Source: Ascidia mentula
Lineage: Eukaryota; Chordata; Ascidiacea; Phlebobranchia; Ascidiidae
Direction: 5' to 3'
DNA: 64,000 nt
Assembly (NCBI GenBank): GCA_947561715.1
Contig: OX387203.1
Span: forward strand, 17,608,001 to 17,672,000
The notes below the pieces were generated by a model. That model saw nothing but the letters and a program-made list of their open reading frames with translations. It was not told where the DNA came from and searched no databases. A program made the position numbers and the translations under genes. This document shows positions 306 to 64,000 of this stretch, in pieces (positions within the stretch are counted from its first letter, which is position 1; every line of letters starts with the position of its first letter).

Positions 306-664
306 TATAAGAATAAAGAATCGTATTAAAAAATCATTTCATTGTGCTTCGTGTATTAGTTCGCTTTGAAACAAGTGAAATTGCAAAACCACAACATTGG
401 TTGTAACTCGCTTCATGTCTCTGAGTGTTGGTTTGTTCCACAGTAGTTTAGAAAACTACAGAAACCAAACCATGAAGGTAACAATTATTCATGTTATTAA
501 CGAAATAAGTCAGAAATCTTTGTGAGTTCGTGTAATAATTACGTTCGACTGCGTAAACTTTGGTGCAAACGTTTGTTTAAACTGGAGTTTGTCCAGCAAG
601 TGAGTAAGTACATTGTGTTGGTAAGAACCTACAAATGTACGTAAACATCTAAACCATTTTCATT
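306..664. other. No gene seen
   Basis: AT-rich sequence without a convincing exon, RNA gene or repeat. It separates the dispersed repeat from the retrozyme array. Confidence 0.5.
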
Positions 665-863
665 GCTTATCATATGATTATTGTGACACGGGGCCTGACG
701 GCACTATTGGTTGAGCTTGCTTGGCCGTAGTGTTTCCACCTTGTTTGCTACGTAAGGTTGCACCTAGTTTGGTGCCCAACGGATGACGGTGACTGTATAG
801 TCACCACAAAGTGGAAGTCTTTGCTTGGCCGTTTGGTCAGCAAAGTCGTCTGACAGTCACACC

Positions 864-916
864 AGCTGCACTGATGAGACCTTTTAGGTCGAAACAGTGG
901 CCATCTGTCTGCAGCT
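864..916 (+). ncRNA. Type I hammerhead self-cleaving ribozyme, copy 1
   Basis: All core parts are present in order. Stem I 5' strand AGCTGCA (864-870) pairs perfectly with TGCAGCT (910-916). CTGATGA lies at 871-877. Stem II is GACC..GGTC around a short T-rich loop (878-890). GAAAC follows (891-895). Stem III is ACAG..CTGT with a seven-base loop, and the cleavage-site C is at 909, preceded by GT. Because helix I is the open helix, this is type I. Every residue of the conserved core that I can check is intact, so cleavage after 909 is expected. Loop-loop contacts between stems I and II cannot be judged by eye. Confidence 0.92.
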
Positions 917-1147
917 TATACACAAATTCATATTATTGGCTCCACATTGGTTATCATATGATTATTGTGACACGGGGCCTGACGGCACTATTGGTTGAGC
1001 TTGCTTGGCCGTAGTGTTTCCACCTTGTTTGCTCCGTAAGGTTGCACCTAGTTTGGTGCCCAACGGATGACGGTGACTGTATAGTCACCACAAAGTGGAA
1101 GTCTTTGCTTGGCCGTTTTGTCAGCAAAGTCGTCTGACAGTCACACC

Positions 1148-1200
1148 AGCTGCACTGATGAGACCTTTTAAGTCGAAACAGTGGCCATCTGTCTGCAGCT
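1148..1200 (+). ncRNA. Type I hammerhead self-cleaving ribozyme, copy 2
   Basis: Same motif 284 bp downstream: AGCTGCA (1148-1154), CTGATGA (1155-1161), stem II (1162-1174), GAAAC (1175-1179), cleavage C at 1193, TGCAGCT (1194-1200). The only visible change is one G-to-A in the 3' strand of stem II, which turns one C-G pair into a C.A mismatch. The core is intact, so it is probably still active but with a weaker stem II. Confidence 0.9.
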
Positions 1201-1208
1201 TATACACA

Positions 1209-2636: not shown

Positions 2637-4188
2637 TAATGAAATTTGGCACAATCTTTGGTTTTCCCACTTTGACAAAAACATTCATCACTTTTATCGG
2701 GACAGTCGGTGACGTCATCACACACATTTGACCTTGAGATAATCATTGGGTCATTTGTACATTGAAAACATGAACGATGATTAAATGTCTGAGAACTTCG
2801 AATGTCTCTGCAAATGAAGTCCATTATTTTTGAATGAGAACTGATGATGTTTTTAGCGAAACATGTTTTCTTTACAATAAACTGCGTTTGACACGAGGTT
2901 ATTTATATGTAACATTACAAGTCCATTCTGTCTTATCTTAACTGGAAGATACGTTCAACCAACCACAACGTTTCATCAGTACCTGGCATCTCCATTCTCC
3001 GAGGTGTAACACAAATCAGATTTATCATCACAATCGGCAATACCGTCCCATAGAAACATTTGCGGAAGATTGCAATTCCTGCCATTCCGAACACATTTGA
3101 ATCCATGTCCATTATTCCAGTGTTGGAAAGCTGGACAGTCATTGCAAGGATCGCCATCACAAACAGTCGAACGTTTCCAACAAGCTGAATTCGGACACTG
3201 GAAGTTGGAGGGGCAGAGGTACTCACATGGGGAATTCCCTAAACAATGAGCGAGCTTGTCGCACATTTCATTTTTTGAGTTACAGGAAATGTTGGTTTGA
3301 TCCAATGTGTTGTAACAGACTCCATCATTGTCGAAACAATTGCAACGTGGTTTTGAACTAAATAAAATTGATAGTTTATTTGCATCAACGAAATAAAGGT
3401 CTTTTCAAACCTACCCGAAATACACTTCCTTGTTCTTAATGCATTGCTCATGGAATTTTCCATTACAACCGCATTCATCACTCATATCAGGGCAATCTAC
3501 GACGTCATCACAAACACTTGACCTTGAGATGATCATTGAGTCATTTTTACATTGGAAACACAATCCTTCTTTCATGGACGATGTATTACGAATGTCTCTG
3601 CAATAACAAATTTGTTTACAGAAGCAATATTTTACCACAAGCAAGCAGTTATCGCCGTTCTTTTTAACATCTATAGCCATAAAACCACTAAGCTCATTTC
3701 ACAAAAACTATATTCATGTTTGCAAATGTTTCAGTTTTTTCGTTTTCACTGCAATAGGAAGAGTGACGCCGAATAATGGTAAGATGATCAGGAGCACAGA
3801 GGTAGAGGTTAGTCTGGAGCAGTGCTGGCAAGTACGCATATGCAAAATGCAATCAAAGACGAAATACCTGACATCTCCATTCTCTGAGGCGTAACACAAA
3901 TCAGATTTATCATCACAATCGGCAATGCCATCCCATAGAAACATCTGCGGAAGATTGCAATTCCTGCCATTCCGAACACATTTGAATCCATGTCCATTAT
4001 TCCAGTGTTGGAAAGCTGGGCAGTCATTGCAAGGATCGGCATCACAAACAGTCGAACGGGACTGGAAGTGGGTGGGGCAGAAGTCACACAGCTTTTTTCC
4101 AACACATTGGATCATTCCTTTGCAAAACTCCTCCACTCTTAGGGCGCATACTTTGTTGAAACCGTAGCCGTCAAACTTGTTGTCGCAA
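2637..4188 (-). CDS. LDL-receptor class A repeat protein (partial, four exons)
   Basis: Four exons can be read on the minus strand: 4188-3868, 3597-3415, 3357-2983 and 2807-2637. Each has an AG acceptor and GT donor, and every junction is in phase 2, so the frame runs through. The exons are Cys-rich. The first and third share a block with FKCVRNGRNCNLPQMFLWDG then DCDDKSDLC. The second and fourth share ISRSxVCDDVxDCPDxSDEC. Both blocks have the Asp/Ser-Asp-Glu signature of LDLa modules, which bind calcium and act in extracellular ligand binding. The pattern is a tandemly duplicated exon pair. No start exon or signal peptide was found above 4188. The last exon either ends at the TAG overlapping its GTAAGT donor or continues to an exon I could not find. 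Expected location is extracellular or membrane-anchored; ligand unknown. Confidence 0.75.
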
Positions 4189-4460
4189 CTGTAACAAAGT
4201 AATGTATTACGTCATATAACAATAGTTTCGGGAGATTTGCGTTTGTAAATGTTGAAACATGAAGAGTCGTCATGACTTTTATCCGGTAAATGTTAAGTGT
4301 GGTTTGAAATAAACTAGATTAATGCCAACTAATCATGCACGATTGCGCATGCAAATGTGTGAATAACAATACACAATCTACGACTTCACAATAATTTCGC
4401 GTAACATCTGTTGAAAAAAACTAATAGAAAGCAAATTGGAGACAATGTCATAAATTCTGT

Positions 4461-4645
4461 GAGCTGTAAACAGTTGACCTCTGTTTTGTACTATAAGGTC
4501 TCATCAGTGTAGCTTGGTGCGACTGTTGTAGACGATCATGCCGACCATCGGGCAGGCAAATACTTCTACATTGTGGTGACTATACAGCCACCGTCAACCG
4601 TTGGGCACCAAATTAGGTGCATCCATACGGAGAAAACAAGGTGGA
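4461..4645 (-). mobile_element. Decayed retrozyme copy with inactivated hammerhead
   Basis: On the minus strand this matches the 284-bp retrozyme unit, from the GGTGCCCAACGG region through CTGATGAGACC to the stem I strand near 4461. CTGATGA is intact, but the 3' strand of stem II is mutated, GAAAC is changed to AAAAC (loss of the G12 position), and the cleavage-site C is replaced by T. It is therefore a catalytically dead relic of about 185 bp. Confidence 0.75.
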
Positions 4646-5187
4646 AGAAAACAATTGCAATCAGCAGGTAATTATTCTTGTCTAGAACTCTGCCAAGCAA
4701 TAGTAAATTTATCAAGTCCCTCTCGAAGTTGTGAAGATTTTTATTTTACGTGTAACTTTTCCGATTTCTCGTTTAATCTGTTCTGATAGACTTACTAAAG
4801 CCACTCTGTCCAAAGCCAGTACAGCCCTTGTCTGTGCTGCTGTTGTTTTGAGAGGAGAGTTGAGATGCCAGTGGCCAGCCCGTGCGCTATTTGAGTCGTA
4901 CAAGAAACTACGTAATCAACTACATTGAGGCAGTTTTCCAGCTTCGTGTTTCGGCCGGTGGTGTGAAAGAGGTTGATTATCCGTTTGCAACAGACGGCAA
5001 CCTTGACGTTGAAGCTTGCTTTATTCATGAGCTATAAAAACGAACTTTTTAAATTCATGAAAGTATCTCCGATGACCACAATGTGTACGGTGGCAAGAGA
5101 TTGGTGATAATGCAAGCATCAGTTCTCGCCCCAAATTCTATTCCCGAGCTCTTGCTAGTTGGAAAAAAACAATACAGTTGAGGTGTT
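4646..5187. other. No gene seen
   Basis: No exon with paired splice sites or a recognisable domain. Overlapping open frames on both strands have no protein-like features. Confidence 0.4.
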
Positions 5188-5262: not shown

Positions 5263-7429
5263 CCAGTGGTTCCTACTGAAGCATCCACGCAACCAGTTGC
5301 CACATCCACCCCAAAGTCAACCATGCGGGACGACGGCATTATAGAAATGCGGTCCCACAAACGGAAGAAAACATCGTACTGCCGCACTACATACGTAACA
5401 TCAGGCAAGCATCTTAAAAGTCTATGTGGCAAAGTAATTTCAAAATACCGTGTCACGACTGGGCTTCGGATGAAACCCATCCCGTTGTAACCACGCAGAC
5501 TGAGAGTGTTTGTTGATTAGTTGAACATGTGGCACATGTTATATTCTAATGCCCGATGCGAAGGTTGTGTGTAATATATGAGGCAATAATACTAAATGAA
5601 TTCAATACAACCCGTTTTTAATCAGCCAATATCTTGTACTTTTGTTATAGTTTTTGACAATGGCGCCTACTTCGTACATGCTTGTGTGCATTTAGAACTT
5701 CCGGCACCATCTTCATAATCTCGGTGCCTCTGCAGGGATTGGTTGTTATGACGCGGTCAACATCCCCCTCTTTACTGACCTCTCACTTCTCTCTGCTTTA
5801 AACAATATTACAAACCCCGCATACTGGAAATACACTCTTGAACTCACTTCTGCACACACACTTGGAATCTTTACACACCTATTTCACGTCTGCCCATCCA
5901 TGCAGCTCTTGCTAACTCTGGTAAACAAAAACCCTCAACGCACTTCTCCTTAACTTTCCCAAAACTCCCACAACCTAACACACCCTACGCCACAACCCTT
6001 GCAGCCCTTCTGAACACCTCTATGTTGCCATATCATTTCGAGACCCGTAACTGTATCCGCAATGACCTCCGCCCTTTGAACAGAATCCCCAACACCTAAT
6101 CCAGTCACTTAAACATTCCATAAACTTTAGGCTCGCAATCCAGCGGAACAGGGACAACACCTTTCCTTAATGCGTCCTGGCTGATGTCAAACATTCTATA
6201 AATATAAATTAATCAACGTTCTCTTCACCCCATTCTTACATCAGCAAAACTTAATCCTGTGCCATTACCTGTTTTTTTTTGTTCTTCACGTTTAACATAA
6301 CTTCCTCTTTCTGGCGTCTTTTTTCCAATCTCTTTAATCTTCTGCCATATTTTTTTTCCATTTAATATTATGTAACATGGGTTTAATTCATATTATTGGC
6401 TCCACTTCGCTTGCATGCAAGATAAGCAAATCCTGACAAAATTATCAACAAAAAACGTTTTGCAAATTTGCCATCAATCCAAGCAACCATTTTAAGTTTC
6501 TGGCTTTACTCCCACCATTAAAAACTCTTTTTTTACCACGACGGGATGCGAACCCAGAATATTCCGGCCACGATCAGACTTTCTTCTTGGTATGGAGAGG
6601 TGGCCAACTTGTCAGCGAAAGCAATCGAGCTTTTGAATAATCGACTCACATGCGACGGGAATATTTTGAAGGTGGTCGAATTTTGGGAAAGTTCCTGTAT
6701 ATTTTCGCAGAACCATGTTTGCTGCTTGAGTTCGTGTTGGGCAGAAAACCTACATGGGTTTCTGCGACGTCGCATTTAAGGTAGTTTGCGTAGTTGTGTT
6801 GGATTACCGAAGAATTAAAGTGCGCATTTCACAAACAAAAGCTTTTACGTCGGTACGTGCGCCAGGTACTGAATTTACAAGAAAGTAGATCAGAATAACA
6901 TTAAATACGTGCCTGTTGTAAGTATACACTTTTCGTGCGCTATATGTGGTAATAATGCCACGTGTTACGGAACAATGCGCCACGTGTTTGGTAACAATGC
7001 TCAATTTAAAAACAATGTGTTAAACAGGCGAACATGAAACTTTTAGTTTTCTCGGTAAATTATGCAAAAAGATTGACGATTACGTTTATTTAAAATTTAA
7101 TTCAACGCAAACTGTGATGCGATCGGCGTGTTGACCACCCCTGATATAAGCCTTTGCTTATCTTAGATTAACCCTTTGCGCCACCCACTGGGTAAAAGTC
7201 ATTTCTTACCTCGACAATATTATTGTTGCGTGGGAGTGTTTCGCAATCAACAATTTCCTTTCAATATCGAAGCAAAAACACTTCTGAATGCATGGGGTTT
7301 TGAAACTGTCTCCGAATTTAATACAAATTATTCCAAATTGGTTATTTCAAGTAAGACAAACCCTGATAACATCGTCTATTGGTTGGTCTGAACTAATACA
7401 ACGAATGTAGGGAACATATTTAAGTGCTT
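5263..7429. other. No gene seen; C-rich relic and a short retrozyme-like match
   Basis: About 5740-6170 is unusually C/A-rich on the plus strand compared with its surroundings, with no usable frame. About 6384-6406 matches 22-23 bp of the retrozyme spacer (ATTCATATTATTGGCTCCAC). Nothing else is supported. Confidence 0.35.
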
Positions 7430-18720: not shown

Positions 18721-19085
18721 CCTGTTGCTGCCAGGCATATTGCAATTAAAAATGTACTGCTCTTCTGGCATAAACGTACTGTATTTTGCGACGTTTCGTC
18801 TGCCATGCGGCAAGACTTCATGAGGTATAACGCAACAATTGAATCACACTGAAACACGCAGGGGCACAAAAAAGAAAAAGAAAAAAGGGGGAACGTTAAC
18901 ACCGCTTGTCAACTCACGTGCTAGAGGCAGAGGCACCAAACATTGCAGAAGACACAACAATTACAACAAATTATTTTTTGAACTGCCGGAAAGAAAACAC
19001 ATTGTTCTTTGTTATTGACGCAACCACTATTTTTGTCGATGTGCAACGACTCATATGCGTTGGCCAATCATGCGGTGACATTGCG
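18721..19085 (+). mobile_element. Penelope-like element remnant (5' part)
   Basis: The frame at 18906-19091 (NCRKENTLFFVIDATTIFVD) matches the start of the better-preserved fragment on the minus strand near 23.3 kb (NCRKVNTLFFVGDASTVFVN), and its DNA is repeated at 42688-42840. Upstream, 18721-18785 is the reverse complement of about 23460-23535. A hammerhead-like core in antisense sits at 18793-18824. The reverse transcriptase body is missing. Confidence 0.65.
18793..18824 (-). ncRNA. Hammerhead-like core at a Penelope-like end, mutated
   Basis: On the minus strand: CTCATGA (one change from CTGATGA), a strong hairpin (GTCTTGCC pairing with GGCAGAC around GCAT), then GAAAC. An extra A precedes the hairpin. 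Self-cleavage is doubtful because the G5 position is changed. Confidence 0.45.
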
Positions 19086-23771: not shown

Positions 23772-26700
23772 ATGATGTTAAAGTATTGCTTGCAAGCTTT
23801 CCTGCTTTGTTATCTGCAATGCAAGAATCAATGCAATTCGTTGACAGGTAAGCTACCTTTCAAATTTACTCATAAAATTTTTATGTACTGCTTATAAGTC
23901 TACTAAATATTTCGTTACCACAGCGACGTGTGACACAAAGTTATCAGATTTAAATCACTCAATTTCAAAAGTAATCTGCCCACCCAACTGCTGGAGACAA
24001 TATTCGGATTTGTGTGGAAGTGATGATTACGCCTCTGGTCCCCTTTGTCTGGCTGCAATGCATGCAGGACTGATGGACAGTAAGTTACAGTGATAGTACC
24101 CTGGCATATTTACCGGATTTTCTTTGATATGAACTCAAACCAAATATTTTAGATGATGGAGGCTATTTTGAAATATACAAAAGTGATCCAATCCATGAAT
24201 ATATAGGATTGGACAGGAACGGAGTGAGAAGCAAATTTTGTTCGTTTGCAAGATGGTCTTACACATTTGAAAGTAAACTATGTTCCGGGTAGCGTTTTGG
24301 TTAGATTAAATAATAACTATTTATGGAAATATAGTGAAATGCAGCACGACAGGAAACAGTGAGTTTTCTGTAACGGATGTATTTTGTCCACCTGGTTGTT
24401 CGTCCAACTACGTCTGTGGAACAAATTCGTACAACAAGAATTCCTCGGTTTGTGCCTCTGCCATTCACGCTGGTATCTTGTCGCGTAAGTTGGTGTAATT
24501 AACACTTTGTGGTTTGTTTGAATCAATCATGAATATTTTCAGGAAGTGGAGGATACGTGACGTTTTATACTAGAAACGGAAGACGCTCATTTATTAGTTC
24601 GACCAAGGATGGTGTGACCAGCAAATCGTGTGGTTCATCAAGTCAATACTTTTCTTTCACTCGTAAGTTAACAAAAAGCATTCTAAGCGATAAACAGGGA
24701 TTGAAAGTGAAAAGAAGTGATAAATGAAATAACGCTTGTTTTTCGATATTTCAGATGAAGATTGTTTGAGAAGTTGTTCTAACAACGGTGAATGTTTGTC
24801 TGGAGTTAACGACCAACATTGTTCTTGCAACCCCGGGTTGATCGGGTCAGACTGTGAAATAGGTAAGAAATTGCCCTGAAAGCTGGAATATTCGGTACTA
24901 AGAGAAATGTGCCAGGTAAATCGCAAAAGACTTGAAAATTAAAGACAAATCCTGCATAAAGTAAACGCTCCAATCACCTATTTCATGTTGTAATGTGTTC
25001 ATGTTTAAGCAGCAGAATATTTGATAGTTCTAAATTTTCAGCCATACGAACTTTCACTTATAGCCGTGTTGAAGGTGCTGTCCTTTAAAGAAGTTCATGC
25101 CCCGCGTTTACTTCGGAGCTAATTGCCACTCAGTGTGTGACAGTCAACTAAAATTGATCGTAATTATCATATTCAGACATAAACGAATGCGCGAATGTAA
25201 TGCACAACTGTCATCAACATGCAACTTGCATCAACACCGTCGGCAGTTTTCAATGTTCTTGCAACGCAAACTACACCGGAGATGGCATTGATTGTTGTAA
25301 GTTTGACTTCGTTTTTTAGAATATTCAAATACAGGGATTCCAACCTCTGGGCCGCGAACCGGTTTGGGTCCGTGATGCATTTGTAACCGATCAGTAGAAA
25401 AGAGAAAAATGATGGCCTTTTTCGAGGATGCTGTATGACGATCAGCTAAACGAAATTGCCTTGGTTACTTAACTGTGGTTACAATCGAATCACCGACTAA
25501 ATAAACTACTTTTTACACAACCTATCACCCTAGTGTTCTGTAGGGCCGGAATGTCATGGTATTCAACTCTTCCCTGTGAGTAAGAATGCAAATTCAGATC
25601 ATGAAACCAAAGTTCTTTTTAGATCCAGATTTCTGTGCACAAAATCTTGGTATTTGCCAGAACAGAGGAAGATGCATTGACACAAAAACCTCCTACAGTT
25701 GTTCATGTGCCCACGGGTATGGAGGAACACATTGCGAAATAGGTAAGATTTTGCAGTTTTTTTTTGTTTTTTTTGGATGAAAGGTGTTGTGTTTCTTTAT
25801 ATTTTGTTCGTATCGTTGCAAATCATAGAATGAAAGCAAGGTACTGCGTACACGCATTTAAAGGGGAAATTAATTGCATTTCAAGTAACACGCACAAATA
25901 ATAATCACGCTGAAAGGACTGCGACACATTCCACGCATCACGCGACGGTGGCATGCAAGCGCATTGTTGCCGCCGTACGTAATGAGGCGTGACCTCAACA
26001 CCTCCCCACCGAAGATAGAAAAACCCTCCATCAGGTTAATAGTGTAACCGCTCTGGAGGTTTGCGCGATCGCTTGCCACTTTGTGGATTGCTGGCACCGA
26101 ACGCAGAAGTGCTGGGATTGGTTGGAACGTCTATTTCTGGAGACGGAGGCTGCAGAAATCTTCATTCTTCCACCGGTTCCAAATCTTGGTCAGAAACGTA
26201 TCGAACGCGTAACTGGTCAATGTGACATCGCCAGATTGGACCTCGGGGAAACACTTTCACATGAAACATTCGACTGCCAAAACAATTAATAATAGTGACA
26301 GGAACCCAGCGACCATCCTTGCTGTGCCTCGGGCCCATGTATAAAGCATAACATGGATCGCCAGCTTTAAAAGAAATTGTATCTTCGGATTTTCGTGTCG
26401 GCCTTACTTGATTACGTTGCTTAACGTGTGCTGGTGAAGGTAACAGAGTATCAATTTTTGCTCGGATTTGTCTGCCGTTAAGGAGTTCACTTGATGAAAA
26501 TCCACTAGCGTTGGGAGTACGCCTGTACTGAAATAGAAACTCCTGCAATGCTTATTTAAGGGGGTTTAGAAGACTTCTTCATTGCCTTCTTAAAAGTTTG
26601 GACCAATCATTCCGCAGCGCCATTGGTTGCAGGAAAATATGGTGCTCCTGTCAAATGTACGATGCCCCTTTGCTTGCAAAATTCCTGAAAATCAGCAGAC

Positions 26701-29700
26701 ATAAATGCTTGTGCATTATCCGACACAATAGTGTGTCGGTAGCCGAAATGGGCAAAATCTCTTTCCAGCAATTCCATAGTTGTTCTTGATGACATAGATT
26801 GCGTTTGATGTACGCAAGGGTACTTTGAATATGCATCGATCATCAGAAGCCAGTTACTTCCCAGAAAGTTAACTACGTGATCGATATGTAATCGACTCCA
26901 TAGCTTTTCTGGCATCATCCATGGATGAATTGCTGCCCTTGAGGGAGCGTTTTGGTGTTCGGCACAAGTCTGGCACTTGTGACAAAGAACTGTAATGTCA
27001 TCATCGATATTCGGCCAGTAAACTGCGGTCCTCGCCAGCTGCTTCATTCGTTGGATCCCAAAATGTCCAGTATGTAAGATCTGCAGAAAAGTAGAACGAA
27101 GTGATTCCGGTATGACTAACCGCGAACCATATAGTAGAAATCCGTAACTTGTACTCAACGAATCCGCTACTTTGCAAAACTTGGCAACTGGGTCACTGTT
27201 TGCCAAAGAAGATGGCCCTCTCTAGTAAAGCGCATGACTTTGGATAAGACCGGATCTTTTCCACTTTCCTTTCGGAGTGATGCCGAATCGGTGGGTTGCA
27301 CTTGTAAACTCAGACTGGTGATTGCACAAACTATGTCGGTGTCCTGTGCACTTTCCTCTCTGTAAAAGACTGCATCTTCCCCAACCGGTAAACGACTAAG
27401 TGCATCGGCATTCTGATGTTCCGATGTCTTCCTGTATTCAATCTTGTATTGAAATCGACTCAGAAAAAGTGCCCACCTTGCTAGGCGGTTAGCTGCTAAA
27501 GCAGGTGTAGCTTTAGTGGGACCGAACAAAGCTATCAGTGGCTTATGGTCGGTCACCAAAGCAAATTTCCTGCCAAAAAGATACTGGTAAAACTTCTTCA
27601 GCGCGAAGATTATTGCAAGAGCCTCTTTCTGAATTTGGCTGTAGTTGCGCTGGCTTTTGGTCAATGATTTTGACACGTTTGCAATTGGCCTCTCGCTTCC
27701 ATCTGGATAGCGGTGAAACAGAACTGCTCCAATTCCAACGTTTGCTGCATCGCAGGAAATTCCAACAGGCAATGAAGGGTCGAAATGAGTCAGAACTGTG
27801 TCAGCTGACAACCATTCCTTCAATTGGCAAAATGCAGCATTCTCGTTCCTGCCCCATTTCCACGCAACATTTGACCTGGTAAGTCGATACAAACGTTCCG
27901 CAACATTTGCGAATTGCGATGGCAGGAACTTGCGGTAGAACTGCACTGAACCAAGAAATCAACGTAGACTTGGCACATCTTCCGGTGGTAACATGTTGAC
28001 AACCGCATCCAATTTTGAACCTTTGGAAATGCCTTCTTTGGAAAGAATGTGCCCCAAGTATTCCACTTGTGGTAATGCAAATTTGCATTTCTCTATACGA
28101 CAGCGTAAACCCTTGTCGTTGAGCCTTTGAAGAAGTTGGCGAAGATTGTGAATATGTTCTTCGGCCGTTGATCCGCTGACCAAAAGATCATCCAGATAGA
28201 CGGTTACACCTTGCAAATCTTTTGTAATGTCGTCCATTAATACCAAATGGTAAAACGTTTTGCAATAGAACACCTCTGTGTGAACTGATTGCCAGTCTCT
28301 TGCGACTCTCTGGCCCCAATCGGATTTGGTTATAGGCGTCAGCCAAATCAATTTTTGTAAAGCTGTATCCATCTCGCAACTTGCGCATTAAGTCTTCAGG
28401 AAGTGGAAGTGGATGACGGTGTGTAGATAACTGCGGGTTAACGGTTACAGAGTAATCTCCGCAAACTCGTATCTTGGCTTTGGTTTGTCCTGGAAGCGGT
28501 GACTTTCGTATTGGAACCACTGGCGTTCCCCACTTGTTAAATTTCACAGGAGTCCAAATACCTCTTGCGATGCCAGCGTCAAATGCCTGGTTGACATCGT
28601 CTTGTAACGCGAATGGAACAGGTCTCGGCTTGCAGAATATGGGTTTCACGTCCTTCGTAAACTTTACCGCTAGTTCAAAATCCTTTAAACATCCCAATTC
28701 GGTCTTGAAAAGATCTGGGTATTGTCCACAAAGTTGTTTGCAAGCTTCTTGCAAATGAGTGTCCGGACGGCTATCGTCAGATAATGCGTGCAACTGCTCG
28801 TCGGGACTGTGAAGTAGCTTATCCAACGAAATGTGCAGGGATTGGATAGCGCATCTTCCAAGCAGATTTAAATGCGGCATTTGGGAGACGAAAAATAAAG
28901 TTTCCGTTTGTTGCGGTGTCCATCTCCAATAGACATGCTTTGCCGTTAATGGTAACGGTTACCTCCAACTTTGTACGTGAAATGACTTGCGGCTTGATCG
29001 AAAACAACAAATTGACATTGTCGTTAGATGCCCTCTTCTTTCTGCAAGCTGCTTCCAAATGTCCCAAACGTTTGCAAAAACGGCATGTTGCTGTTTTAAA
29101 TCGGCAATTGGGTGCAATATGATCTGCCTTTCCGCAGCGGTAGCAAGAAATCTTCTTCTTGAACTGACCTTGAACAACTGTAGTTGGTGACTTAACAGCA
29201 GTTTTCTTTGCATCCCGAACTTTATGCACCGATCCCCGTGTTCCGTAAACGGTTTCCTTTGCAACCTTGGCAGCGTCTTCAGTTTGCATGGCAACTTCAA
29301 TAGCACGCGTAAATGTCAGCTCATCAGCGTTGATTTTGAAAATTGCCTTCAGCACTGCCTCATTGGCTATGGAGCAAATAAACCTTGTGCGCAGCGCCTC
29401 GTCCAGAGGGTTTTCGATCGAGGGAAAATCACACGTGCCTGCGTCCTGGTGAATGCGTGCAGCCAATTCTTGCACCGTTTCCCCTGGATTGCGTTGCATG
29501 TTGCTCCAAAACTTGAAACGTTCCCGAATAACAAATCGCTTTGGATCGAACTGTTCCTTCATAAAGGCTTTGATGTCTGTAATAGAAAGATCGTTGACGG
29601 GCTTTGCAGGAGAGCTTTGTCCAGCCAGATTGAATAAAAGCTTGTACGTTGTGGTAGTTTGGTTGGTCAAAAAAACCTGAGCCACCCTCGTTTCTGGTAC

Positions 29701-32700
29701 AGCATGTGCACGTATAAACGTAGCAAGCCTCGACCAATAGTCGTCCCACAACTCCGATGTTGCGTCGAATGACGAAAAGCTTGGTGTAGCAACGGAAGGT
29801 GCAGCGTTTCCACTTGAACCAGCCTTGTCAACTAGGGCAAGAATCAACTTCATTTGTTCTTCGTGACACTTACGTTGTTCTTCATAACACCTTCGTTGTT
29901 CTTCTCGCTGTTCATCGTGACGCCTTTGCTGCTCTTCTTGCTGTTCATCGTGACGTTTTTGCTGCTGTTGTAACTGTTCTTGAATGAGCTTCGCAACTTT
30001 TTTCATCTTCGGGCTAACTTAAATATATTCAATAACAAACTGTGTGCACCTCGTTCAGTTGATTGAATCCCATCCTCGTCGCCAATAACTCTGTTGTGTT
30101 TCTTTATATTTTGTTCGTATCGTTGCAAATCATAGAATGAAAACAAGGTACTGCGTACACGCATTTAAAGGGGAAATTAATTGCATTTCAAGTAACACGC
30201 ACAAATAATAATCACGTGGAAAGGACTGCGACACATTCCACGCACCACGCGACTGTGGCATGCAAGCGCATTGTTGCCGCCGTATGTAATGAGGCGTGAC
30301 CTCAACAAAAGGAATGCAATTTATTAACAATGTTCATGGTGTTCGAAACCTAGGTTCGTTTCCAACCTGCAAGGACGCGTTACAAATCGGCCTCAAAGAG
30401 AGCGGAGTCTACAATTTAACTTCTCCTCTGACTTTCCAGGGATATTGCGACATGGATGGTGGTGAAGCTTGGCTGGTGAGTTTGCCTCTCGAGGCTGGAA
30501 CTGTATCCTAAGTTTATTGGTTGGGAAGCGTTCGGTGGACGTTTACATGACAAGTAATTGTCTGAACACCTTACCTAAGTTATGATAAATACCAGGTGTT
30601 CCAGCGTCGTTATGATGGATCTGTGAGTTTCGATAGAGATTGGGTGGATTACAAGAACGGGTTTGGGGATCTAACAACAGAATTTTGGATGGGTTTGTAT
30701 TCCAATAATGCAATCTTTAACTAAACGTCTTAGAAGTTTAATTAAAAATCAAGTACAACTGCTGTTAAATTTTGAATAGTAGTTGGTTTTAAATTTAATG
30801 CATTTACTGAACATTTACTAAGTGTTATAACGTGCGCACAACCAGTTAAATATACAGGCCTACCAAGCAAAACGTTTCAAGCACGCTACGCAAAAATCCT
30901 AGATAGTGTCTCAATGACGCTAGCGCGTGATGAGTCGCTTGAGTTGCAATGATTTCTTCTACCTCGTCTTGCAAAGTAATCAGACCTTGGATAATTATCT
31001 GGATAACGGTTGTATTGAAATATGTTACCTGTTTCATTAAAACAGTACATTATAACTCTTCAATATAATGTTGATAGAATCCAAGCGAATAGAATAGAAT
31101 CCAGTAGAATAGACTTTACAGGTAGACACTGGGCTGTTTAAAGCTCTCCATACTGATCACTGATTGGTCAATAACGTCACGTAATATCATGAGGCGCTGG
31201 AAGTATTATAATACAAGAACATTAGGTGTGATGTGACAGCATAGGAGAACATTTTATGTGGTAAACAGGATGTTAAATGAATCACTTTACTCGAGAACAT
31301 TCGATGACCAGCAATGGTTTCTGTGACGTATGTTACAAGTACATATAACAGTATCAGTTAATCCAATTTAAATTCCAGTGTTCTCAGCAATATTATTACA
31401 ACCAACAAATTTTATCAGGTTTGGAGAAACTGCATCAAATCACCAGTGCGTCGACCAGATGTCGCCTTCGTGTTGACCTTCAGGATTTTTCCGGAGGTCA
31501 AGGATTTGCCGAGTATAGGTAAGACTATTACGTATTTAAAGTTTTCAATTTAATGCCATTGTTCCAACGATAATTTACCCGATGCTGCCAGGTCGTCATA
31601 ACTAACAAAATCTTAAAAGCCACACCCCCCTTTATTACGTCAGATTCCCAAAGTTTGGGATTTAAGTTTGAAGCATTCAATGCATTTACTCGGTTCGGAA
31701 TAATTATGAAAACAAAAACTTGCGGTTTGTGCGATCGCTTGATCGTGGATTGCAACGAGTTTATGCGGTCGTTGTTGCCCAACTCCTTGTGGTAAAATCT
31801 TGAGCGCCAAGTACTGACCTTTGCCAAAACGTTGCATCTTGACTGGAAAGTTAGATTTATCCGCTTTGTTCTTCAGCTACAATGAAACCTCTTTGTAATC
31901 GCCTTAAATTAACGTTTAACCGAGGCACACGTACCCTGCCAGTGACGTAGGATCAGAAATATTAAGAAACTTGTCACAAACAACGTAGTTAAATGCGGGT
32001 TACAGAATAGTCTCGGCAAAAACTCATCTAACTTTTGCTTCTCCTGTAAGATATTCCAAATATATCTTGCAATGTCAGCATCGTATGCTTGATTGACATC
32101 TTATTTAAATGGACAGGTTTCAGTCGTTTGTGAACTTTTGTGAACTTGAAGTTGAAAATATCTGGGTTTCTTTCTCAAAACTTCTAATCCCACTCTGTGT
32201 TTATTGCTTAGTTGACAAATAATTATCCCACAGAACAGAACACAATGTATGACACATGTCGTTTGTTACGTCATAAAGTGTTTTATGTTTCATTTCCGTG
32301 AGCAACAAACCAATGTAAGCGGATTGATTTAAAACAACAAATTATCCGTTGTTTTTTAAATTACTTTGCATTAAATTAAACATTGTGACATTTTTGTTTT
32401 CAGTACTTTCAACATTGGCAATGAAGGAAGTTCCTACACAATTACTATATCCGGATATACGGGAAATGCAGGAGATTCCATGACTGTTGTGCAGCACAGT
32501 CTAAACGGGATGAGATTTTCAACTCTCAACAGAGACAATGATTTGTGAGTAATAATGATACAACGTGTCTGATTATATTTCTGTTTTACTAACGAAGTAA
32601 ATCGAGTTGTTTAAAAACGAAAAAACTGCATTTTCTTAAATAGTTGATTTTCAATGACAAAGTTAATCGCCTACCCTAAATCAACAATTGTAAAAATCAA

Positions 32701-49019: not shown

Positions 49020-50975
49020 ATAATTTAAGGCTCTTCTGGCAAAAAAACTTGTTTGGACGACGTTTCGGTGGTTATTCAACAGACCTTCATCAGGACAAGC
49101 GAAGTAAAATAAAACGCCAACACGGCGATAAATAGCAACGCGTGACAAAAAAGGCGAAAAAGAGCGAAAAAAGCAAGAAAAAAGCTGAAAAACGGGGAGG
49201 GGAGCACAAAGAATTAAAAATGCGCGCCAACAAGGAATGAGATACCGGGGTCTAAATCACAGTGCCCTGTGGTACGCAGGACCATCAGGTTTAATCAGGG
49301 GACGTGTCGCGCAGACCGTTATCAAATGCCGATAAACGGGTGGAAAAAAGGTTTCCCTTTTGTCATTAAGTGCAGATTCATGTCCATTTATATGCACAGA
49401 CTCCAATGAACATTCTCTTGTACTTGTCCTTTTCCCTGTCCAGAATTGTTGTATCTTTAAAATTGACCATGTGCCCTGTTTCTGCTACATGTTGCGACAG
49501 TGCCGTCCTTGTAAATTTCTTGGGCTTGACATCCCGCTGATGCTCCTTTAATCTTGTCCGTAAGGCGCGACCCGTCTCGCCAATATACACCTTCTCACAC
49601 TCTCCGCAGAGGATGCGGTATATCACACCCCCAGCATCTAGCGCGCCTCCAGTGCGATCTTTGGGATACGAGACCAAGGAGCGTAATGTGACTGAACGAC
49701 GCTCGAACACCAGGGTGGAAAAATCCTCCAGCAGTCTCTTCAAGGTCTCCGAAAGTCCTGGAAAATATGGAAGAACAACCACACCCGCGGAGGGCCTTTT
49801 GTCGCATTTAGGCAGGGATGCATGGTTTCGTCGCAGAAAGGAGCTTGGGTAACCATTCCTTAACAGAGCATCCCGCACACTACCCGCCTCTTGTTCTCGG
49901 GCCTTTTTCTCTGTAACCAGATTCTCCGCTCTAGCGTATAGTGCACGCACTACAGCCAGCTTGTGGGATATAGGGTGCGCTGACCGGAAAGATAGATACC
50001 TGTCAGAATGTATCGGTTTTCGGTAAACACTCGTGCGAAGCGACCCACGGTTTTCCCTTTGAACAGCAACATCTAAACACGATAAAATCCCACCATGCTC
50101 AACCTCCATGGTGAACTTAACGCTCGCTTCGATCGAGTTGAGGTGCTCAAGCAGCGATTCCACGTAGTCGCGATGCACAACCACAAAGGTATCATCCACG
50201 TAATGTCGCCAAAGTGGGGGACTCGAAAACGTTGACAACGCTCTTTGCTCCACGGATTCCATGAACTGTGTTGGCGACCACAACTGAAAGCGGAGACCCC
50301 ATGACTGTACCAAAAATTTGCTTGTAAAATTCACCTTTGAACGACAGATAGGTGGCGTCCAGACAGAGTTGAATGCATTCCACGATCTCCGGTAGTGGCC
50401 ACGAACAACTTGCCTCCAATGCCTCATCTCTCTGCAGTCTTTCTGCTGCCACTCCCACCGCCAACTTCACCGGTACGTTTGTGAAGAGAGAGACGACATC
50501 AAATGATACCATTACCTCCTCCTGCTCCACGCTCAATTCTTTAATCTGTGCTGCAAAATCGATAGAATTCCGGACGATCTCATCCGTCGCACCCACAAGG
50601 GGGGCCAAAATACGGGCCACATGTTTAGCAAGATTATACGTGGGAGATCCAGGAACGACACAATAGGCCTAACTGGAACCCCAGGCTTATGAATCTTTGG
50701 ATGACCATAAAGACACAGCTTCCGCCCATCCGTGCTATGCAACTCGAAAAACTCCCTTACTGATAACACTTGCTTGTCCCTGTGTAAGCGACCAACCATT
50801 GCATTAACCTTTTGTTTAACAATGTGACCGGGATCCCTCTTCACCTTGCGGTAGGTCTTTTCGTCAACCAACATTAACTTAAGCTTGTTCTCGTAATCCC
50901 ATCTATTCATAACCACCGTCACATTTCCTTTGTCCGCAGGGAGTATTACAATGTCATTATTATATACGTATCTGG
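49020..50975 (-). pseudogene. Penelope-like retroelement: reverse transcriptase plus GIY-YIG endonuclease, frameshifted
   Basis: Minus-strand coding runs from about 50970 (DIVILPADKGNVTVVMNRWD) through YGHPKIHKPGVPVRPIVS and FDVVSLFTNVPV, to FYKQIFGTVMGSPLS, then the catalytic RHYVDDTFVV and a GIY-YIG-type endonuclease (VIYRILCGEC..KVYIGETGRALRTRLKEH). RT followed by GIY-YIG is diagnostic for endonuclease-bearing Penelope-like elements. The pieces lie in three frames (breaks near 50.6 and 50.2-50.4 kb) and the N-terminus is missing, so it is an inactive 5'-truncated copy. The 3' end carries a hammerhead-like motif. It is inserted within lectin copy A, just after the stalk exon. Confidence 0.9.
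49062..49093 (-). ncRNA. Hammerhead-like motif at the Penelope-like 3' end
   Basis: The coding strand has CTGATGA, then AGGT..ACC-type weak pairing, then GAAAC followed by GTCGTCC. Both invariant core blocks are intact, but an extra A sits before stem II and stem II is short, so activity is uncertain. Hammerhead motifs in the terminal repeats of Penelope-like elements are established in other eukaryotes. Confidence 0.55.
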
Positions 50976-50984
50976 GGATGCTGT

Positions 50985-51530
50985 TAGAATCTGTTGTGTT
51001 GTCGTAACTTCTTTTGTCGTTTTCTCCAGCACGATTTCAGTTGTTTGTTGGGGTTGTTGTACTTGCTAAAAGGTATGTAATTAAAAATTAAACAATATGT
51101 TTATGTAAAGCTCCTTACTTGCTCACACCAATATGTTGTTACGTTTAAATATTCCTGAAAACATTTTGATTTTATATATCAGTGTAAGGCAATTTAATTG
51201 TAACAAACTAACTTAAAAATGGCAATAAATTCTGTTCGTCTCACAGTTACGACCTGTGAGGATGAGTAAAAATATTTATATATTTTATTTAAACTTTGTC
51301 CGTCTGCAGATACCTACTGATATCCGTTGACAAATATATCCCGAAGTAACATTGCATTCCGTACTTCTCCACTTGTATTCTGAATCAAAAAAAGTTAATG
51401 AACCCATCATCACACAACACTTGGATCCTGTTGTGATCTGTTCCCCTGTTGCCCACTGTCCATTGACAATATTTGAAAAACGATGCCCACTTATAGTTGC
51501 TTGTTGCTGCATCCCGTTTAACGACCTCTG
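50985..51530 (-). pseudogene. C-type lectin copy A, 5'-truncated
   Basis: About 51512-51316 keeps the second half of a lectin domain (NGQWATGEQITTGSKCCVMM, YKWRSTECNVTSGYICQR) with a phase 1 donor. The EPN motif has become EQI, and the frame is disturbed before NGQW. The Thr/Gln-rich stalk exon (about 51066-50985; QTTEIVLEKTTKEVTTTQQ) follows. Upstream, the first exon is replaced by a ribozyme-element-like fragment at 51540-51600. Downstream, the Penelope-like element begins. Confidence 0.7.
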
Positions 51531-61500: not shown

Positions 61501-64000
61501 AAAAACATAGGCCAATTTGGTTTTCACTGCTCGTTTTCAACTGCCATCTAGTATTTGTGTGCAAAATTTCAAGTCGCTTGATATAAAAATGTTCAAATCA
61601 AAGGCGGACAACTCTCAAAATTACTTAATTACGCCCAACCGTAGCCATCATAGTTTCAAACATGCGTTTTTGTTCGCGAATAAAAAACAAAAAGACATAC
61701 GCCAGTTTGGTTTTCACTGCTTGTTTTGTGCTGGTATCTAGTATTAGTGTGCAAAATTTCAAGTCGCTTGATACAAAAATGTTCAAATCAAAGGCGGACA
61801 ACTCTCAAAATTACTTAATTACACCCAACCGTAGCCATCATAGTTTCAAACATGCGTTTTTGTTCGCGAATAAAAAACAAAAAGACATACGCCAGTTTGG
61901 TTTTCACTGCTTGTTTTGTACTGGTATCATCTAGTATTAGTGTGCAAAATTTCAAGTCGCTTGATACAAAAATGTTCAAATCAAAGGCGGACAACTCTCA
62001 AAATTACTTAATTACGCCCAACCGTAGCCATCATAGTTTCAAACATGCGTTTTTGTTCGCGAATAAAAAACAAAAAGACATACGCCAGTTTGGTTTTCAC
62101 TGCTCGTTTTCAACTGCCATCTAGTATTTGTGTGCAAAATTTCAAGTCGCTTGATATAAAAATGTTCAAATCAAAGGCGGACAACTCTCAAAATTACTTA
62201 ATTACGCCCAACCGTAGCCATCATAGTTTCAAACATGCGTTTTTGTTCAAGAATAAAAAACAAAAAAACATAGGCCAATTTGGTTTTCAGTGATTGTTTT
62301 GTACTGGTATCTAGTATTTGTGTGCAAAATTTCAAGTCGCCTGATATAAAAATGTTCAAATCAAAGGCGGACAACTCTCAAAATTACTCAATTCCTCCCA
62401 ACCTTAACCACCATATTGTAAAACATGCGTTTTCTTTCGCGAATAGAAAACTAAAAGACATAGGCCAATTTGGTTTTCACTGCTTGTTTTGTACTGGTAT
62501 CTAGTATTAGTGTGCAAAATTTCAAGTCGCTTGATACAAAAATGTTCAAATCAAAGGCGGACAACTCTCAAAATTACTTAATTACGCCCAACCGTAGCCA
62601 TCATAGTTTCAAACATGCGTTTTCGTTCGCGAATAAAAAACCAAAAAACATAGGCCAATTTGGTTTTCACTGCTCGTTTTCAACTGCCATCTAGTATTTG
62701 TGTGCAAAATTTCAAGTCGCTTGATATAAAAATGTTCAAATCAAAGGCGGACAACTCTCAAAATTACTTAATTACGCCCAACCGTAGCCATCATAGTTTC
62801 AAACATGCGTTTTTGTTCGCGAATAAAAAACAAAAAGACATACGCCAGTTTGGTTTTCACTGCTTGTTTTGTGCTGGTATCTAGTATTAGTGTGCAAAAT
62901 TTCAAGTCGCTTGATACAAAAATGTTCAAATCAAAGGCGGACAACTCTCAAAATTACTTAATTACACCCAACCGTAGCCATCATAGTTTCAAACATGCGT
63001 TTTTGTTCGCGAATAAAAAACAAAAAGACATACGCCAGTTTGGTTTTCACTGCTTGTTTTGTACTGGTATCATCTAGTATTAGTGTGCAAAATTTCAAGT
63101 CGCTTGATACAAAAATGTTCAAATCAAAGGCGGACAACTCTCAAAATTACTTAATTACGCCCAACCGTAGCCATCATAGTTTCAAACATGCGTTTTTGTT
63201 CGCGAATAAAAAACAAAAAGACATACGCCAGTTTGGTTTTCACTGCTCGTTTTCAACTGCCATCTAGTATTTGTGTGCAAAATTTCAAGTCGCTTGATAT
63301 AAAAATGTTCAAATCAAAGGCGGACAACTCTCAAAATTACTTAATTACGCCCAACCGTAGCCATCATAGTTTCAAACATGCGTTTTTGTTCGCGAATAAA
63401 AAACTAAAAAACATAGGCCAATTTGGTTTTCACTGCTCGTTTTCAACTGCCATCTAGTATTTGTGTGCAAAATTTCAAGTCGCTTGATATAAAAATGTTC
63501 AAGTCAAAGGCGGACAACTCTCAAAATTACTTAATTACGCCCAACCGTAGCCATCATAGTTTCAAACATGCGTTTTTGTTCGCGAATAAAAAACTAAAAG
63601 ACATACGCCAATTTGGTTTTTACTGCTCGTTTTCAACTGCCATCTAGTATTTGTGTGCAAAATTTCAAGTCGCTTGATACAAAAATGTTCAAATCAAAGG
63701 CGGACAACTCTCAAAATTACTTAATTACGCCCAACCGTAGCCATCATAGTTTCAAACATGCGTTTTCGTTCGCGAATAAAAAAACAAAAAACATAGGCCA
63801 ATTTGGTTTTCACTGCTCGTTTTCAACTGCCATCTAGTATTTGTGTGCAAAATTTCAAGTCGCTTGATATAAAAATGTTCAAATCAAAGGCGGACAACTC
63901 TCAAAATTACTTAATTACGCCCAACCGTAGCCATCATAGTTTCAAACATGCGTTTTTGTTCGCGAATAAAAAACTAAAAGACATACGCCAGTTTGGTTTT
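52565..64000 (+). repeat. 190/191-bp satellite array, about 60 units, open at the window end
   Basis: The anchor GCCAATTTGG or GCCAGTTTGG recurs every 189-193 bp from 52574 to about 63985. Two subfamilies are visible. One has 191-bp units ending TAATATCCGCCCAACAGTAG (52.57-53.72 kb, and again at 57.33-57.71 kb). The other, with 189-193-bp units reading TTAATTCCGCCC or TTAATTACGCCC, fills the rest. Blocks of three units (570 bp; 58855 and 59425) and six units (1143 bp; 61137 and 62280) are repeated as higher-order units. Most units hold a palindromic TTCGCGAA. Each unit of the second group has a 74-codon frame that overlaps the next by 35 bp; because 190 is not a multiple of three these cannot fuse, and I treat them as incidental. 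Confidence 0.95.

Follow-up and report, generated by a model that had tools for sequence, protein, structure and literature searches.

How does a short, non-coding repeat that carries its own ribozyme reach new sites in an animal genome? The question is raised by a locus of the ascidian Ascidia mentula, in a 64,000-nt stretch of contig OX387203.1 (the window), where an initial annotation had proposed a retrozyme array with two type I hammerhead ribozymes. Retrozymes, Penelope-like elements (PLEs) and the idea of PLEs as helpers are already known: PLEs were named, as a proposal, a strong candidate helper of animal retrozymes (PMC7229834, 2020), and a 2024 review gives the helper as LINEs or PLEs (PMC11722881). 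The retrozyme call was right, although the family is an ordinary one, and the analysis supports as the new part a rule of insertion, in which each of two fixed sites supplies one outer end. So far the helper of animal retrozymes has been a guess, and this one-of-each footprint bears directly on it. The footprint is a signature readable from the genome and can be checked in that of any animal.

The hammerhead array of the window

The two hammerhead layouts described by the initial annotation are both present, 284 bp apart (Table 1). Copy 1 is intact and comprises a perfectly paired stem I (AGCTGCA/TGCAGCT, 864-870/910-916), CTGATGA (871-877), a 5-bp stem II (878-890), GAAA, a 4-bp stem III and the cleavage nucleotide C909; copy 2 has the same layout shifted by 284, with cleavage at C1193 and, as had also been noticed, one stem II mismatch (C·A). 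A scan for the core together with the three stems (stem I, at least 6 bp; stems II and III, at least 3 bp each) found exactly these two in the window and none in 150 dinucleotide shuffles; the bare core pattern is weakly informative, with 45 matches in the window vs 13 expected. The hammerhead fold of copy 1 (-16.0 kcal/mol) is close to the predicted minimum (-17.4 kcal/mol) without being it, and that of copy 2 (-11.5 vs -14.4 kcal/mol) is likewise not the minimum. The Rfam covariance search, which the initial annotation had itself named as a refuting test, went against it: no hammerhead matched in the window at the gathering threshold, both copies scoring below it, and at a relaxed threshold the only hammerhead families listed were Hammerhead_3 (22.6 and 18.5 bits; cut-off 48.5) and RAGATH-1 (20.4 and 22.8 bits; cut-off 56.3), Hammerhead_1 being absent. 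The type I family RF00163 gave nothing across the whole genome, a null result that is not decisive because 14 control genomes gave nothing either. The hammerhead motif is real as sequence, and from it we infer ribozyme activity.

The repeat between the two cleavage sites is 284 nt long, as annotated, and defines the coordinates used below, in which u1 is the first base past the cleavage point (window 910). The two tandem units, 284 bp from start to start, are 98% identical over 271 nt and differ at 6 of 271 columns, which places the array among the older ones. The unit has a GC content of 0.47, and the majority unit is predicted to fold stably as a circle (z -3.48 vs 200 shuffles). No closed stop-to-stop open reading frame of 120 aa or more occurs in 665-1206, and the unit holds no reverse transcriptase (RT) or GIY-YIG frame, both of which are found in separate PLE copies.

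Table 1. Coordinates of the retrozyme, its parts and the PLE fragment in the window
Feature	Position	Strand	Remarks
Left target-site duplication, CATTTTCATT	655-664	.	AAAC (common half-site) outside
Retrozyme insertion, 1.9 units, single arm	665-1206	+	5' end at u40, 3' end at site 1 (u13)
Type I hammerhead, copy 1	864-916	+	Cleavage after C909 predicted; from sequence and chance scan
Type I hammerhead, copy 2	1148-1200	+	Cleavage after C1193 predicted; one stem II mismatch; from sequence and chance scan
284-nt unit between cleavage sites, predicted RNA circle	910-1193	+	u1 = T910
Site 1 (u11-20)	920-929	+	One of two end zones of family insertions
Tail between sites 1 and 2, ~28 nt (u17-44)	926-953	+
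Site 2 (u38-51)	947-960	+	Second end zone of family insertions
Right target-site duplication, CATTTTCATT	1207-1216	.
PLE fragment	49041-51036	-	Frames with GIY-YIG (over Pfam cut-off); RT by homology to longer copies only

Two further traces of the family lie in the window: an old, decayed relative at 4429-4646 (minus strand; 79% identical to the unit over 223 nt, ribozyme core broken), and an exact 21-nt match to the retrozyme tail (u16-36) at 6385-6405, followed by a short inverted stretch, which is perhaps the relic of a very short insertion.

Insertions of the family across the genome

The genome searched comprises 196 Mb in 79 contigs. In its mitochondrial contig, COX1 carries AGA/AGG at positions where glycine is expected, in agreement with the ascidian code (NCBI table 13), and its best match is the COX1 of Phallusia, at 90% identity. 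At least 145 retrozyme matches were found in 40 scored places among 2199 first-look candidates, these counts being lower bounds. All 40 clusters were examined, together with 16 of 20 further clusters found with a diverged query, the other 4 belonging to one repeated block of contig C73; the sample thus comprises 56 clusters. The assignment to the animal retrozyme class is borne out by this dispersal, by target duplications, by units that are nearly uniform within each insertion and by a ribozyme core preserved in 118 of the 121 complete units examined across the genome.

In 36 of the 56 clusters (29 of the first 40 and 7 of the next 16, the latter classified by eye), two arms lie head to head, a minus-strand arm preceding a plus-strand arm, with the 3' side of the RNA facing outward on both sides. 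In every one of these 36, site 1 (u11-20), which lies shortly after the ribozyme cut, supplies one outer end and site 2 (u38-51) supplies the other, an outcome with a probability of 2^-36 under independent and equal choice. In the 29 insertions from the first 40 clusters, the two zones are narrower still, at u12-19 and u40-50. A clean insertion using the same site twice (site 1/site 1 or site 2/site 2) was found in none of the 56 clusters. The 20 clusters without the pattern are single-arm copies (10, that of the window among them) or are odd or decayed (10). From the first 40, 6 single-arm (L033, L036, L038, L040, L048 and L070) and 5 odd clusters (L041, L049, L059, L062 and L063) were dropped, and from the next 16, 4 single-arm (L106, L112, L116 and L117) and 5 odd ones (L111, L113, L118, L119 and L121). 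Within the odd group, L059 has an outer end at u266-272, outside both sites, and L041 was set aside since it has site 1 at both ends and flanks that are mirror images of each other, which points to a later palindromic duplication.

An exact target duplication of at least 10 bp flanks 33 of the 36 one-of-each insertions; the exceptions are L045 (7 bp), L066 (8 bp) and L107, which was classed from match ends and lacks any exact duplication reaching 6 bp. Among the first 40 clusters, 34 have an exact duplication of at least 10 bp, the mirror-flanked L041 included, and 32 share a flank word of 12-16 bp, whereas mismatched flank pairs reach 12 in only 9 of 1560 cases. The target half-site AAAC adjoins the duplication on both sides, with A at -2 in 53 and at -3 in 52 of 66 half-sites. 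Of 33 inner joins between arms, 21 have an overlap of 1-7 matching bases and 4 have no overlap; the other 8 contain additional bases, part of which may stem from trimmed match ends. On average 1.42 bases match, roughly double the value for random joins (0.68). The two arms of an insertion stop at quite different inner coordinates (u157 and u82 in one case), and site-1 and site-2 arms show neither a difference in length (medians, 329 and 397; p = 0.28) nor a correlation. As a pattern the insertion rule is strong, read as it is from the sequence of one genome.

The units themselves indicate what kind of template was copied. Marker mismatches amount to 15 of 969 (1.5%) between units within one arm and 12 of 783 between the two arms of one insertion, vs 17322 of 68817 (25%) between different insertions. 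The majority haplotypes of paired arms differ at 2 of 204 markers, vs a permutation mean of 23%, and none of 5000 permutations gave a value as low. In L048, L053 and L056, no column differs between units in 3535, 3838 and 4770 pairwise comparisons, respectively. Differences within insertions are mostly private to the insertion (90 of 114), the other 24 being common to others. Markers are shared between units and between arms, and therefore one insertion derives from one RNA sequence. The cleavage junction is crossed by 57 of the 58 measured arms, and 39 of the 58 are longer than one unit, the longest reaching 1680 nt. The template was therefore not a linear cleaved monomer, which is ruled out because site 1 lies only ~16 nt from the monomer 5' end. 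Circular RNA is the template that fits these sequences best, although a uniform multimer would also cross the junction.

Two related groups of sequences were encountered. A second hammerhead family (L072 and L074, around position 3420, minus strand) shares its stem I (AGCTGCA/TGCAGCT) with the main family, carries GGCTC in its tail and lies next to PLE copies on contig C71, within repeated blocks. A retrozyme subfamily ~88-90% identical to the main one (L105 and L121, C73:5692893-5774019) lies in a repeated block with PLE copies.

Penelope-like elements of the same genome

The PLE fragment of the window, a relative of the candidate helper, carries a minimal hammerhead at 49056-49093. The GIY-YIG domain of its 362-aa frame scores above the Pfam cut-off, and the frame has at least 117 matches in the genome. 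RT is absent from the Pfam results of two window PLE frames. In related copies, two long open frames resemble the RT family with scores slightly below the Pfam cut-off, and GIY-YIG is listed in neither; a PDB search with a PLE protein gave no match. In the 3' region of five PLE families, a minimal hammerhead with the sequence GCCAGAAGAGC, or one close to it, is followed by a first end, then by a 27-38-nt tail that includes CCTGG (in some copies of family E, CCAGG), and lastly by a second end. This order, ribozyme - site 1 - tail - site 2, is identical to that of the retrozyme.

Of 36 PLE pairs that lie head to head and have canonical sites at both ends, 35 bear the tail on a single side (family E, 12; D, 5; A, 4; B, 5; C, 9), five family E pairs having been assigned by eye since their tail, ACCAGG, was missed by the script flag. 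The tail is one-sided in all 27 pairs with an exact duplication of at least 10 bp. These 27 of the 35 were found by script; duplications of 12-14 bp were identified by eye in L081, L130/L131 and L148/L160, and L163, L164, L165, L169 and L174 have only 5-9 exact duplicated bases. The exception is a family C pair, 3.7 kb apart, with tails on both sides (L179/L180, C52:17862280-17866340); no target duplication shared by its two copies was found, and it may therefore be two insertions. Another pair with tails on both sides, L075/L078, has mirror-image flanks and was set aside like L041; both may reflect either a palindromic duplication of the locus or an assembly artefact. Besides L075/L078, the count leaves aside L080, L177 and L178 (one end short or unclear) and the L084 pair (partner outside the sample). 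The one-of-each footprint is thus common to retrozymes (36/36) and PLE pairs (35/36), the window copy showing one end only.

A comparison of families A-E singled out no helper: the AAAC half-site is nearer to family D than to E, but the offsets differ. Of 61 retrozyme ends, 33 have GTT at offset 11-14, as do 10 of 23 family D ends (and, at offset 8-11, also 10 of 23) and 7 of 28 family E ends, vs a background of 8%; families B and C enter this comparison with few copies. None of the PLE tails of this genome matches the retrozyme tail convincingly in sequence. In the PLE tails of L090, L095, L098, L075 and L088, a possible stem GCCAG/CTGGC encloses the first start site, and the family E stem ACCAG/CTGGT is a possible compensatory change. 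A comparable pairing in the retrozyme, of GCCA in loop III with TGGC in the tail, was seen by eye and is absent in the L074 family, and it is not claimed here. The window also contains a family B PLE 3' end with its tail at 18721-18841 (minus strand).

A model of mobilisation and its alternatives

The retrozymes of this genome are probably mobilised in trans by PLE enzymes acting on circular RNA. In this model, tandem copies would be transcribed and the ribozyme would cut out monomers, which a host ligase would close into 284-nt circles; such circles of animal retrozymes, and their closure in vitro by RtcB, have been published for other species (PMC7229834). The PLE reverse transcriptase/GIY-YIG endonuclease would bind the circle in trans and cut both target strands ~12-13 bp apart, and the 3' end of each strand would prime one cDNA, one from site 1 and the other from site 2. 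Because the template would be circular, a cDNA could run round it several times and produce tandem units, and the two cDNA ends would then be joined between the arms, in many cases across 1-4 bases that match. Where only one strand is extended, a single-arm copy like that of the window may result. We lean, by a little, towards a single concerted event: a dimer of the PLE enzyme would start two cDNAs simultaneously on one circular RNA, each of the two start sites being used once, with one cDNA per target strand. If true, the concerted rule would explain both the movement of retrozymes and the head-to-head PLEs with a one-sided tail, and it would offer a mechanism for the odd structure of PLEs (inverted copies, optional tail).

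The same machinery could have used an uncleaved multimeric transcript, the ribozyme having another role. A cDNA on such a template could also cross the cleavage junction and give tandem arms, and the Anolis PLE enzyme PAc inserts RNA with a dead ribozyme in vitro (PMC11167929). Yet units look uniform at birth (1.5% marker mismatches within vs 25% between insertions), most of the within-insertion differences are private, and a multimer transcribed from an older array, such as that of the window, would pass the differences between its units on in order, all of which makes this template rather unlikely. That the repeat is a satellite spreading by unequal crossing-over, with a fossil hammerhead, would account for tandem units, and animal retrozymes were first seen as satellites (PMC7229834). 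We give this reading hardly any credence: the arrays are short and dispersed on many contigs, mostly with their own target duplication and with fixed outer ends, and the ribozyme region departs from the majority less (34 of 7158 positions) than the tail and body (265 of 23277).

L1-type twin priming gives 5' inversions within one target duplication, and only one of its two outer ends is the RNA 3' end. Mobilisation by a LINE through this ordinary route would match the inversions; here both outer ends are at fixed sites 28 nt apart, as in the PLEs of this genome, and the route appears very improbable. For Penelope copies of Adineta, self-priming or fold-back of a single cDNA has been proposed (PMC3846280); fold-back makes inverted repeats, and the arms here are indeed head to head. 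As a reading of the present insertions it is equally hard to maintain, for the inner junctions differ widely and show short matches, not hairpins, and fold-back does not explain why one outer end should lie at site 1 and the other at site 2. Two independent insertions are disfavoured by the single target duplications, the common haplotypes, the fixed outer ends and the non-palindromic inner junctions.

The preferred reading, PLE enzymes acting in trans on circular RNA, can be set beside known systems. Like the metazoan non-LTR retrozymes (Cervera and de la Pena 2020, PMC7229834), the present family has a type I hammerhead per unit, tandem units (170-400 nt in the former), GC below 50%, no LTR, PBS or PPT, target duplications (>4 bp when present in the former) and PLEs in the same genome. 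Those retrozymes were described as direct tandems, whereas the copies here are mostly head to head with two fixed end sites; the word "inverted" does not occur in the main text of that paper. Among the titles and abstract openings listed in searches of open-access literature, none reports head-to-head retrozymes or a test of their helper. Plant LTR retrozymes (PMC4918200, as cited in PMC7229834) are likewise ribozyme-bearing and non-autonomous, with a circular RNA intermediate, but differ in their type III hammerhead, LTRs, length of 600-800 nt, 4-bp duplications and Gypsy-type helper (PMC7229834). In another tunicate, Didemnum vexillum, type I hammerheads have been recorded at 9 loci (PMC8704543).

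The likeness to PLEs extends to a hammerhead upstream of two alternative 3' ends ~30 nt apart, to inverted, head-to-head arms with a tail optionally on one side, and to short target duplications, 8-10 bp in those PLEs and mostly 12-15 bp here (PMC3846280; PMC11167929). In the Adineta Penelope, a 31-bp tail is optional on one inverted repeat (PMC3846280), and purified PAc cuts and extends both target strands, with starts at two internal positions of the RNA, one at either boundary of the tail (PMC11167929). PLEs, whose hammerhead is minimal, code for RT and a GIY-YIG endonuclease, whereas the retrozyme is non-coding, with a fuller hammerhead and tandem units. PLEs with permuted domains are reportedly the subject of a 2021 paper.

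Two other kinds of repeat share the window with these elements, namely a Gypsy-like LTR retrotransposon at 26162-30018 (minus strand; several frames, with RT and integrase matches) and ~60 tandem copies of a 190-bp satellite, which run from 52552 to the window end at 64000.
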